Assembly (NCBI RefSeq): GCF_024464655.1
Contig: NZ_JANHAV010000002.1
Span: 124,001-188,000 of the forward strand
From: Halobellus inordinatus
GTDB lineage: Archaea; Halobacteriota; Halobacteria; Halobacteriales; Haloferacaceae
Reading direction: 5' to 3'
DNA length: 64,000 nucleotides
Made by a program: the position numbers and the translations under genes. The notes under the pieces are model-generated. The model made no database searches. It saw nothing but the letters and a program-made list of their open reading frames with translations, and was not told where the DNA came from. Shown piece after piece: positions 27,394 to 39,213 of the stretch (positions are counted from its first letter, which is position 1; every line of letters starts with the position of its first letter).

Positions 27394-27477
27394 CCGCGTC
27401 GCGGTCGGCGGCGTCCCCGATCCTGTCCGCGAGGACATCCCAGAAGTCATATGCCGGAGTCGCGATTCTGCGCACGT

Positions 27478-28473
27478 ATGGACGCCTACGAGCAGATCAC
27501 CCGGAACGTCTCCGAGGTGGTCACAGAGGACGAAGTGCGCGCGCTAGCCGAATCCCCGGACGGAAAGCGGGCGTACGTCGGCTATGAGCCCTCCGGCGTC
27601 CTCCACATCGGTCACATGCTGACCGCGAACAAACTCATCGAACTCCAGGAGGCGGGCTTCGAGATCGTCGTGCTGTTGGCCGACGTCCACGCCTACCTCA
27701 ACGACAAGGGGACGTTCGACGAGATTCGCGAGACGGCGACCCGAATGCAAGAGCAGTTCGTCGCCTACGGCCTCGAGGAGTCCCAGACCGAATTCGTCCT
27801 CGGCTCTGAGTTCCAACTCGACGAGGAGTACGTGCTCGACCTGCACGCGCTCGAACTCGAAACGTCGCTCTCGCGGGCCGAGCGCGCGATGGCGGAGATT
27901 CAGAGCGGCGACACCGCGACCGTCGCACAGGCGGTCTACCCGCTGATGCAGGCGCTCGACATCGTCTATCTCGACGTCGACCTCGCGATCGGCGGGATGG
28001 AACAGCGCAAGGTGCATATGCTCGCCCGCGACACGCTGCCGAGCATCGACGCCGACGCGCCGACGTGTCTTCACACGCCCTTGATCGCGGATCTGACGAC
28101 CGGCATCGGCAAGATGTCGACTTCCTCGGGCGTCTCCATCTCGATGGAAGACTCCGCGTCGGACATCGAAGACAAGGTCAACAAGGCGTACTGCCCGCCG
28201 ACCGCGGATCCAGAGCCGACAGACGAGGGACAAGAGCGGGAGAACCCCGTCCTCCAGATCTTCGAGTACCACATCTTCCCGCGCTTCGGCGAAGTCGTCG
28301 TCGAACGCCCCGAGCAGTACGGCGGCGATCTGACCTACGAGCGTTACCAGGACCTCGAAGACGACCTCGAATCCGGCGAACTCCACCCGGCGGACGCGAA
28401 GGGCGCGCTCACGACGTACCTGAACGACCTCATCGCGCCCGGTCGCGAGAAGATCCGCGAGCAGCGGGACTGA
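27478..28473 (+). CDS. tyrS: Tyrosyl-tRNA synthetase
   Basis: Archaeal-type TyrRS, 331 residues from ATG 27478. The class I HIGH motif (HIGH, residues 43-46) follows YEPSGVL. The KMSKS-type loop reads GKMSTSSGVS. The helix with QAVYPLMQALDIVYLDVDLAIGG recognises tyrosine. It charges tRNA-Tyr. Stop codon TGA at 28471-28473 touches the 82-bp palindromic element at 28473. In-frame ATG 27 bp upstream is a less likely start. Confidence 0.97.
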   Translation: MDAYEQITRNVSEVVTEDEVRALAESPDGKRAYVGYEPSGVLHIGHMLTANKLIELQEAGFEIVVLLADVHAYLNDKGTFDEIRETATRMQEQFVAYGLEESQTEFVLGSEFQLDEEYVLDLHALELETSLSRAERAMAEIQSGDTATVAQAVYPLMQALDIVYLDVDLAIGGMEQRKVHMLARDTLPSIDADAPTCLHTPLIADLTTGIGKMSTSSGVSISMEDSASDIEDKVNKAYCPPTADPEPTDEGQERENPVLQIFEYHIFPRFGEVVVERPEQYGGDLTYERYQDLEDDLESGELHPADAKGALTTYLNDLIAPGREKIREQRD

Positions 28474-28554
28474 TAGTGATTACTCTCACTGTGTACCGCC
28501 GAGCGCCACTCCCGGAGGCGATGGTCGGCGGTAAGAGACGAGAGTAATCATTAT
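28473..28554. repeat. 82-bp palindromic repeat element, copy A
   Basis: Terminal arms ATAGTGATTACTCTC (28473-28487) and GAGAGTAATCATTAT (28540-28554) match with one mismatch. Six bases (ACTGTG / AGAGAC) follow each arm and are identical in copy B (37831-37912). The inner stem TACCGCCGA (28494-28502) / TCGGCGGTA (28525-28533) then encloses a variable centre. The left edge shares the last base of the tyrS stop codon. Lengths, arm positions and stem offset (21 bases from each end) are identical in both copies. MITE-like or REP-like; no gene inside. Confidence 0.85.
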
Positions 28555-28662
28555 GAAGCTCCGCCGTCGGTCTCCCCCACCGACGTCGCCTCCTTGCCAC
28601 TGCGGCCGTCTGACGCCCGTCTTGCTGAGATTGATATTCGCGAGCCGCTAATTTACCCGATT

Positions 28663-28815
28663 ATGGGGATCAAGGGAGTAGTGCTCGGCACGTATGCGCT
28701 CTGTCTCGGGGGACTGCTGTTGTTCTCGGACTCGGGCGTCGCGACCGGGTTGGGGGTAACGCTCGTCGCGCTCACGGGCGTCGCAGTCGTCGCTCAGTAC
28801 GGGACTATACAGTAG
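28663..28815 (+). CDS. 50-residue membrane protein
   Basis: Starts MGIKGVVLGTYALCLGGLL, with two hydrophobic helices (about 5-22 and 27-45), and ends QYGTIQ. An in-frame extension upstream is possible but has no membrane character. AT-rich DNA (CTAATTTACC) precedes the ATG. No family recognised. Its stop codon lies inside the inverted repeat shared with hisA. Confidence 0.6.
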   Translation: MGIKGVVLGTYALCLGGLLLFSDSGVATGLGVTLVALTGVAVVAQYGTIQ

Positions 28816-28861
28816 CGTTTGCAAGCGTTCGCACGCTGACCGAGTTGCAAACGCTACTGTA
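28808..28861. terminator. 17-bp perfect inverted repeat shared by two convergent gene ends
   Basis: TACAGTAGCGTTTGCAA (28808-28824) is the exact reverse complement of 28845-28861, with a 20-nt loop that has its own small stem (GCGT/ACGC). The repeat covers both TAG stop codons: the small plus-strand gene ends at 28815 and hisA (minus) ends at 28854. It would form one hairpin in either transcript, so a two-way terminator is plausible, though oligo-T stretches are missing. Confidence 0.65.
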
Positions 28862-29582
28862 CAGCCATCGCGTCCGCGAGAGTGAACGTCCCTTCGTAGA
28901 GCGCGGTCCCGACGACGACAGCCGCCGCGCCGGCGTCTTTCAGCGTTCGGACGTCGTCGAGCGACGCGACCCCGCCGGAGGCGACGACCGGGATGTCGAC
29001 GGCGTCGACGACGCGGCGCGTCACGCCCGCCTGGACGCCCTCGTGTTGGCCTTCGACGTCGACGTCGGTGAACAGAATCGCGCCCGCGCCGAGGTCCGCA
29101 TAGCGCGCCGCGGCGTCTGCGGGATCGAGTCCGGTGCCCTCGGTCCACCCGGAGACGACGACCTCGCCGTCTTTGGCGTCGAGGCTCACCATCACGCGTC
29201 CGGGGTACTCCGCGGAGATCTCTTCGACCAGTTCGGGCTCTTCGACGGCCGCTGTCCCGAGAATGACGCGCTCGACGCCGCGGTCGAGCAGGTCGATCGC
29301 GTCCGCCGCAGTGCGAATCCCGCCGCCGAGTTGCACCGGCACGTCGACGGCGTCGACGACGGCCTCGACCGCGTCGGCGTTCTGTCTCTCGCCCTCGAAC
29401 GCCCCGTCGAGATCGACGAGGTGCAGGGTCTCGGCGCCGGCGTCGACCCAGCGCTCGGCGGCCGCGACCGGGTCGCCGTAGCGTTTCTCGGTGCCGCGTT
29501 CGCCCTGTACGAGCTGGACGACCTCGCCGTCCTGCATATCGACCGCGGGGACGACCTCGAAAGTGGGGAATGGATCGCTCAC
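28854..29582 (-). CDS. hisA: Phosphoribosylformimino-5-aminoimidazole carboxamide ribotide isomerase
   Basis: Fourth histidine-pathway step, a TIM barrel isomerase. 242 residues starting at GTG 29582 (VSDPFPTFEVVPAVDMQDGEVV), the usual HisA opening; an earlier ATG adds Arg-rich sequence. Catalytic Asp in PAVDMQDG and the second in ILFTDVDVEGQ; phosphate-binding loops VPVQLGGGIRT and PVVASGGVAS are clear. Ends within the shared inverted repeat. Confidence 0.96.
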   Translation of the reverse strand: MSDPFPTFEVVPAVDMQDGEVVQLVQGERGTEKRYGDPVAAAERWVDAGAETLHLVDLDGAFEGERQNADAVEAVVDAVDVPVQLGGGIRTAADAIDLLDRGVERVILGTAAVEEPELVEEISAEYPGRVMVSLDAKDGEVVVSGWTEGTGLDPADAAARYADLGAGAILFTDVDVEGQHEGVQAGVTRRVVDAVDIPVVASGGVASLDDVRTLKDAGAAAVVVGTALYEGTFTLADAMAVQ

Positions 29583-37758: not shown

Positions 37759-37830
37759 CGACGCCGAGAACGCCCGGCACGCCGCAGTAAGATCGGTCAG
37801 GCCGCTCGAGTGCGTCCGGGCACGACGCTC

Positions 37831-37912
37831 ATAATGATTACTCTCACTGTGTACCGGTGAGCGCCGGCAATCGAGGTGGCGCTCATCGGTAAGAGACGAG
37901 AGTAATCATTAT
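37831..37912. repeat. 82-bp palindromic repeat element, copy B
   Basis: Terminal arms ATAATGATTACTCTC (37831-37845) and GAGAGTAATCATTAT (37898-37912) are perfect complements. Inner stem TACCGGTGAGCGCC (37852-37865) pairs with GGCGCTCATCGGTA (37878-37891) with one mismatch. Offsets and flanking 6-mers equal those of copy A (28473-28554), while the stem bases differ yet still pair. The right edge shares its last base with the TGA stop codon (37914-37912) of the neighbouring sulfhydrylase gene. Confidence 0.87.
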
Positions 37913-39213
37913 CAGTTCGTCGCGGCGTCGATCGCCTGTTCGAGGTCGGCGATGATGTCGTCGACGTCCTCGATGCCGACCGAGAGGCGGACCATATCGG
38001 GCGTCACGCCCGCGGCGTTCTGTTCTTCTTCGGTGAGTTGTTGGTGCGTCGTCGAGGCGGGGTGGATCACGAGCGTCTTCGCGTCGCCGACGTTCGCGAC
38101 CAGGGAAGCGAGTTCGACGTTGTCGACAGTGTCGCGGGCGGCCTCGTAGCCCGCTTCGAGGCCGAAGGTGATCATCCCGCCGTAGCCGCCCTCTAAGTAC
38201 TCGGAGGCCTCCTCGTGCGTCTCGTGGCTCTCCAAGCCGGGGTAGTTGATCCACGAGACAGCGTCGTGGCCTTCTAAGAACTCCGCGACGGCCATCGCGT
38301 TCTCGCAGTGTCGCTCCATCCGCATCGGCAGCGACTCCAGTTTTTCGAGGGTGTTCCACGCGTCGAACGGCGACTGGGCGTTCCCGAGATCGCGCAGGCC
38401 GCGGGCGATGGCCGCGTACGTGAACGCGGCGTCGCCGAAGCGCTCGGCGAAGTTGACGCCGTGGTAGGCGGGGTTCGACGCGCCGATCTCGGGGTACTTC
38501 TCGGCGTGCTCGCTCCAGGGGAACGAGCCGCCGTCGACCAGAATCCCACCGATCGTCGTCCCTGCGCCGGTGAGCCACTTGGTCGTGGAGTTCCACACGA
38601 GGTCTGCGCCGTGTTCGATCGGGCGGCAGAGATACGGCGTCGCGAAGGTGTTGTCGACGAACAGCGGCACGTCGTGCTCGTGAGCGATGTCGGCGATGCG
38701 TTCGATGTCGGGCGTGACGAGCGCGGGGTTGCCGATCGTCTCTAAGTGGACGTACGCCGTGTCCTCGTCGATTGCCTCCTCGTACGCCTCGTAATCGAGC
38801 GTGTCGACGAACTTCGTCGTGATCCCGCGTCGCTCGACGGTATGCGTGAAGTAGGTGTAGGTGCCGCCGTACAGCGACGCCGCCGTGACGATGTTGTCGC
38901 CGGCGCTGGCGAGCAGGAAGGTCGCGAGGTCGAGTGCGGCCATCCCGGACGCCGTCGCTGCCGCACCGACGCCGCCTTCGAGCGAGGCGAGGCGCTCCTG
39001 CAACATTCCGACCGTCGGGTTCATCAGCCGGCTGTAAATGAAGCCCTCCTTCTCTAAGGCGAACTGGCCGGCAGCGTCTTCGGCGTCCTCGAAGACGTAG
39101 GAACTCGTCTGATAGATCGGCGGTGCGCGTGAGCCAGTCGTCGGGTCGGGTTCCTGTCCCGCGTGGAGGCTCCGCGTCCCGAATCCGAGTGGTGTGTCGT
39201 CGTCGTCAGCCAT
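37912..39213 (-). CDS. O-acetylhomoserine aminocarboxypropyltransferase (sulfhydrylase)
   Basis: PLP-dependent enzyme (Cys/Met metabolism family) making homocysteine from O-acetylhomoserine and sulfide. 433 residues. The opening [32 protein letters not shown] is family-typical, the PLP lysine is in NSTTKWLTGAGTTIGG, and PFDAWNTLEKLESLPMRMERHCENA follows. It is a close paralogue of the gene at 41734, but in a different operon and without the metX neighbour. Its stop codon touches the 82-bp element. Confidence 0.93.
   Translation of the reverse strand: MADDDDTPLGFGTRSLHAGQEPDPTTGSRAPPIYQTSSYVFEDAEDAAGQFALEKEGFIYSRLMNPTVGMLQERLASLEGGVGAAATASGMAALDLATFLLASAGDNIVTAASLYGGTYTYFTHTVERRGITTKFVDTLDYEAYEEAIDEDTAYVHLETIGNPALVTPDIERIADIAHEHDVPLFVDNTFATPYLCRPIEHGADLVWNSTTKWLTGAGTTIGGILVDGGSFPWSEHAEKYPEIGASNPAYHGVNFAERFGDAAFTYAAIARGLRDLGNAQSPFDAWNTLEKLESLPMRMERHCENAMAVAEFLEGHDAVSWINYPGLESHETHEEASEYLEGGYGGMITFGLEAGYEAARDTVDNVELASLVANVGDAKTLVIHPASTTHQQLTEEEQNAAGVTPDMVRLSVGIEDVDDIIADLEQAIDAATN

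Follow-up and report, generated by a model that had tools for sequence, protein, structure and literature searches.

The closest described class to the element analysed here is that of the small mobile repeats (SMRs) of the haloarchaeon Haloquadratum walsbyi (PMC3119063). SMR-A and SMR-B are non-coding elements of 80-110 bp with terminal inverted repeats, and their mobilisation has been called enigmatic (PMC3119063). They are stated to lack a target duplication, and SMR-A targets the palindromes of IS605-type elements and of PATEs, which are haloarchaeal, non-coding, palindromic elements that have neither terminal inverted repeats nor target duplications (PMC3119063). Bacterial REP/RAYT palindromes are intergenic, and some of them lie near stop codons (PMC12306157).

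Here we describe two 80-bp near-palindromes in a window of 64,000 nucleotides from Halobellus inordinatus, together with their relatives in this genome and across the Halobacteriales. No earlier description of the element was found in the open-access literature; ISfinder lay outside this comparison, so the element may already be registered as a MITE. It represents a widespread, apparently undescribed class of haloarchaeal mobile hairpin whose target follows a clear rule and whose landing site is harmless.

Architecture and distribution of the element

The first-pass annotation had reported two palindromic copies of 82 bp. Both copies were confirmed in the window sequence, but the true unit is 80 bp, because the outermost base on each side is part of a 3-bp flanking duplication. 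Copy 1 (positions 28474-28553, plus strand) is of the type common in this genome and is flanked by TGA on the left (28471-28473) and on the right (28554-28556), both on the plus strand. The left TGA is the stop codon of the upstream tyrosine--tRNA ligase (tyrosyl-tRNA synthetase) gene (27451-28473, plus strand). Copy 2 (37832-37911, plus strand) belongs to another sublineage, has an inverted loop and is flanked by TCA at 37829-37831 (plus strand) and at 37912-37914. The latter triplet, read on the minus strand, is the TGA stop of an O-acetylhomoserine aminocarboxypropyltransferase/cysteine synthase (sulfhydrylase) gene (37912-39213, minus strand).

In copy 1, the 14-bp outer left arm TAGTGATTACTCTC (28474-28487, plus strand) pairs with the 14-bp outer right arm GAGAGTAATCATTA (28540-28553, plus strand). 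Inside these arms lies a conserved motif, present in a left form ACTGTGTACC (28488-28497, plus strand) and a right form GGTAAGAGAC (28530-28539, plus strand; reverse complement GTCTCTTACC). The plan of the element is a 14-bp arm, TAN-TGATTACTCTC, followed by the left motif, an inner stem and loop, the right motif, and a complementary arm ending in NTA. With at most one mismatch allowed, TGATTACTCTC had four matches in the window, all within the two copies; 0.40 matches were expected, and none of 100 shuffles reached four. Both copies folded far better than shuffled sequences (z scores of -6.0 and -9.8).

Copy 2 had been interpreted as copy 1 with compensating changes in the stem. This interpretation did not hold. 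Copy 1 has an imperfect upper stem (GAGCGCC..GGCGATGGTC) that is typical of the common type, which has multiplied to about 25 copies in this form, whereas the upper stem of copy 2 is nearly perfect and its loop has the opposite orientation; copy 2 resembles sublineages of H. limi. The difference between the two copies is mostly that of a separate sublineage with an inverted loop. Almost every copy in the host genome has TAG at its left end and TTA at its right end, so that element positions 3 and 78 form a G-T mismatch, which became fixed in the recent expansion; in other species, these positions are mostly perfect pairs. One copy in the host genome (L007, contig C16:389100) lacks TNA flanks where they are normally found; CTAATGATTAC and GTAATCATTAG form its arms, and GCC lies on either side.

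The window (contig C16:124001-188000) belongs to a 3.41-Mb draft genome, hereafter G000. As the annotation had proposed, this genome was searched with the 21-base ends. The left 21 bases (up to 3 mismatches) gave 27 matches and the right 21 bases gave 27 at corresponding places, and a reversed-pattern control gave 0. With 27 copies carrying both ends, and relatives across the order, the view of a dispersed, MITE-like family of mobile palindromes was borne out. Pattern search placed copies in 10 of the 17 Halobellus genomes. When the Halobellus copies were used to train a covariance model, this model detected related elements in 18 of the 170 genomes of the host's family, and a second model, built from 17 divergent copies, matched 162 of 392 Halobacteriales genomes in 47 of 95 genera. 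In the distant genome G269 there are many near-identical copies of a second subfamily, whose length is again exactly 80 bp. The conservation of the ends and variability of the core that the annotation had described are confined to Halobellus. Over the whole order, the outer arms of 14 bp also vary, for the most part by paired changes, and the inner asymmetric motif is kept.

In a plasmid collection, copies were found in Halobellus and Natronorubrum only. Three patterns detected no true copy in viral contigs; four matches were rejected as chance occurrences in phage-like contigs of 40-44% GC. When five distant genomes were searched with a half-element pattern, some matches at first resembled solo ends; they were rejected as such, because they belonged to a second subfamily of 80 bp. 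A left end without a right end is present beside a glycosyltransferase-like gene at L097 (G003, contig C2, about 363345), and this locus was rejected as a transposon. In H. limi, an element copy (L103, 1090-1345) is split by a different insertion, whose inverted ends are of the CTAAACA type and which has an apparent duplication of 8 bp (CGAGCGCC).

Another palindromic repeat, unrelated to the element, lies at 28805-28864 of the window (CTATACAGTAGCGTTTGCAA...TTGCAAACGCTACTGTACAG). Within 400 kb, the contig carries six more copies of this repeat, which are longer at about 85-90 bp, and the plan of this family is similar, with outer arms, an asymmetric GTCTTCAC / CTGATTGC segment and a variable inner stem.

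Insertion with a 3-bp duplication and position at stop codons

Among 78 distinct Halobellus copies, both flanking triplets were TGA or TCA in 61, and the two triplets were identical in 60 of these 61. Identical flanks were also observed at 38 of 43 copies in distant genomes. Across the joined flanks, the target is a palindrome close to GWC-TSA-GWC, with the core C-TSA-G. C occupied position -1 at 84% of copies, compared with 47% of ordinary TGA stops in the same genome (p 5e-8), and G occupied position +1 at 81%, compared with 37% (p 2e-10). The orthologous genes in other Halobellus species have a plain stop codon without the element; the comparison is between species whose intergenic sequences have diverged, not between conspecific strains. 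Neither window copy was present in any congener whose site was readable, and a close relative (G012; 95% and 92% identity in the proteins of the two genes next to the window copies) had no copies by pattern search. Flank identity, target preference and empty orthologous sites, taken together, show that the element is DNA inserted with a 3-bp TGA/TCA duplication. The sole copy with unlike flanks, TCA and TGA (L016, G000 contig C20:29607), may be a recombination product of two copies.

Both window copies lie exactly on a stop codon, as do 62 of the 78 Halobellus copies according to a hexamer gene caller. The background was the window together with some 400 kb of contig C16; over these 464 kb the caller predicted 486 genes, with a coverage of 88%. 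Stops are expected at 19% of noncoding TSA sites and at 40% of noncoding CTSAG sites. Under the strictest null, in which noncoding sites outside the 60 bp upstream of genes were weighted by the symmetric target profile, 48% were expected at stops, and the observed number was significantly higher (p 9e-9; p 0.002 for G000 alone). On an H. limi plasmid, the NCBI annotation agreed to the base with the stop-codon position for 4 of the 5 copies checked. By contrast, in the recent expansion in G269 only 6 of 21 copies were at stops, and two differently trained gene models gave no stop bias. Pure stop-codon targeting was therefore rejected as a general rule, indicating that the target is a sequence and that the stop codon is a favoured safe site where this sequence often occurs. 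Because the duplication rebuilds TGA in C-TGA-G, the protein is unchanged by the insertion. The simplest idea for the additional stop bias in Halobellus is that selection retains copies at 3' ends. In this genus, a strong palindrome follows directly after many genes, and transcript ends may also be affected.

Stem complementarity and the proposed mode of movement

To characterise pairing, we used 36 distinct Halobellus copies that had been found via the left end only and were thus unselected for pairing, apart from a loose right end required at excision. In these copies, 90% of stem cells were paired, 10 of 32 pairs had changed on both sides, and the covariation score was 0.118, as against 0.031-0.042 in shifted registers. 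In the 17 divergent copies, double changes occurred in 22 of 32 pairs and the score was 0.431 (0.055-0.133 in shifted registers), a figure that leans towards pairing because the distant copies came from a structure-model search. The covariation test suggested by the annotation thus showed that double changes keep the stem paired. Its proposal that folding is selected stands as far as pairing is preserved among relatives, but not as selection on an RNA fold. Mismatches outside column 3, summed over all classes, comprised 48 G-U and 56 A-C in a plain count over related copies with no formal test, and the two orientations relative to the gene were both used (36 vs 26). In a selected RNA strand, G-U is expected to be favoured over A-C. 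The near equality of the two mismatches and the use of both orientations indicate that pairing is preserved at the level of double-stranded DNA and not of a single RNA strand. We conclude that what keeps the arms complementary is the recognition of symmetric ends, the formation of cruciforms or hairpins, or correction by template switching.

These observations bear directly on a possible role as structured RNA, in which mRNA 3'-end hairpins would be kept for their function as terminators, processing sites or stabilisers and mobility would be incidental. The location of copies directly after stop codons in Halobellus, their strong folding and their covariation are all consistent with such a role. 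It is nevertheless quite improbable, given not only the mismatch balance, which is that of double-stranded DNA, and the two orientations, but also the multiplication of the major G000 type despite its broken upper stem, the duplication of the triplet on the gene-distal side, the location of the G269 copies mostly away from stops, and the lack of any Rfam family above the gathering score. Alternatively, complementarity may be unselected: template switching during replication of the quasi-palindrome would rewrite one arm from the other, generating double changes and loop inversions at no cost. Both loop orientations do occur within one genome (G006, at least 8 copies of one and 4 of the other), which points to flipping across the stem, and the mismatches show no strand preference. 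The inner part of the stem behaves differently. Typically, NNTTACCG is preceded by ACT on one arm and by GTC on the other, a difference of three transitions, and this asymmetry recurs in distant genera, with some sublineages deviating (e.g., GCGATTTACCGG or ACGATTTACCGG on one arm). Its persistence mid-stem implies that such rewriting either does not occur throughout or is counteracted by selection, and we regard unselected complementarity as possible but doubtful. Template switching as such is compatible with our preferred explanation, and much of the covariation may be explained by it.

Movement as a REP-like hairpin through single-stranded DNA, by a TnpA_REP (RAYT, HUH Y1) type enzyme, would account for the hairpin shape and the intergenic position, and the loop inversions hint at a hairpin intermediate. 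However, nearly every copy has a 3-bp target duplication, which single-strand Y1 transposition is not known to make, and the length of 80 bp also argues against this mode, leaving it highly improbable. For the same reasons, the membership in the REP family entertained by the annotation could not be sustained.

Our preferred explanation is that the family probably consists of very small non-autonomous DNA transposons of the MITE or 'small mobile repeat' class, about 80 bp long, which target C-TSA-G and are moved in trans. A trans-supplied enzyme would cut the palindromic C-TSA-G with a 3-base stagger, the element would be joined in either orientation, and gap repair would duplicate TGA or TCA. 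Insertions at TGA stops inside C-TGA-G would rebuild the codon, and such insertions would accumulate. The acting enzyme may be a DDE-type transposase that recognises the two arms as element ends. From sequence comparison, the ACT/GTC asymmetry is the strongest candidate for a difference in binding sites at the two ends, and double-strand symmetry or a cruciform might keep the arms complementary.

The autonomous element with the same ends that the annotation had envisaged was looked for and not found. In G000, all ends were paired at 74 nt, and no gene-bearing element had these ends. The PF01609 loci of G000, G002, G003 and G006 carried neither the element's ends nor inverted repeats with a TSA duplication; the PF01609 copies in these four Halobellus genomes had other ends, several with 7-9 bp duplications. 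No member of PF13586 was above the cut-off in six genomes, and the half-element pattern revealed no autonomous partner among the matches listed for five distant genomes.

Several points count against the transposon explanation. The searches above yielded no transposase or longer element with these ends, and a length fixed at 78-80 bp across the order is atypical of transposon deletion derivatives, as is a conserved subterminal motif combined with variable termini. The empty sites are those of other species, and the lack of stop bias in G269 leaves selection as the only account of the additional bias in Halobellus. The 80-bp hairpin might instead be the whole substrate, fixed in size, of a domesticated recombinase that resides in Halobacteriales hosts; it would then be dispersed without an autonomous element and be no remnant of a transposon. 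We consider this unlikely; if true, the C-TSA-G rule would turn TGA stops into safe harbours.

Comparison with known mobile elements

Taken as a small non-autonomous transposon, the element resembles several known systems in part. The IS5 family, the IS1031 group and PIF/Harbinger elements generate a 3-bp TNA-type duplication, and the present element shares this feature, in the form of TSA almost exclusively. By contrast, its ends do not match theirs, and none of the IS5-family loci searched had matching ends. REPs are shorter (20-40 bp, as against 80 bp), are not known to make a target duplication and have a different end motif. Unlike PATEs, the present element has both terminal inverted repeats and a target duplication.

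Like MITEs, the element is short, non-coding, dispersed and multi-copy (80 bp, 27 copies in G000), with 14-bp terminal inverted repeats and a TGA/TCA duplication. No parent transposon with matching ends was found in the genomes and loci searched. The element differs from ordinary MITEs in that the arms vary by lineage around a conserved subterminal motif and the length is nearly fixed over the order. With SMRs, it shares the haloarchaeal host, the size of about 80-110 bp, inverted repeats unrelated to known transposons, the lack of coding capacity and, in the case of SMR-A, a marked target preference. It is set apart from them, according to their description and not their sequences, by the duplication of TSA and by the targeting of C-TSA-G and stop codons. 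MITE or 'small mobile repeat' is the best description of the element, and the mobilisation of haloarchaeal small mobile repeats, which lack a transposase, becomes a testable question.
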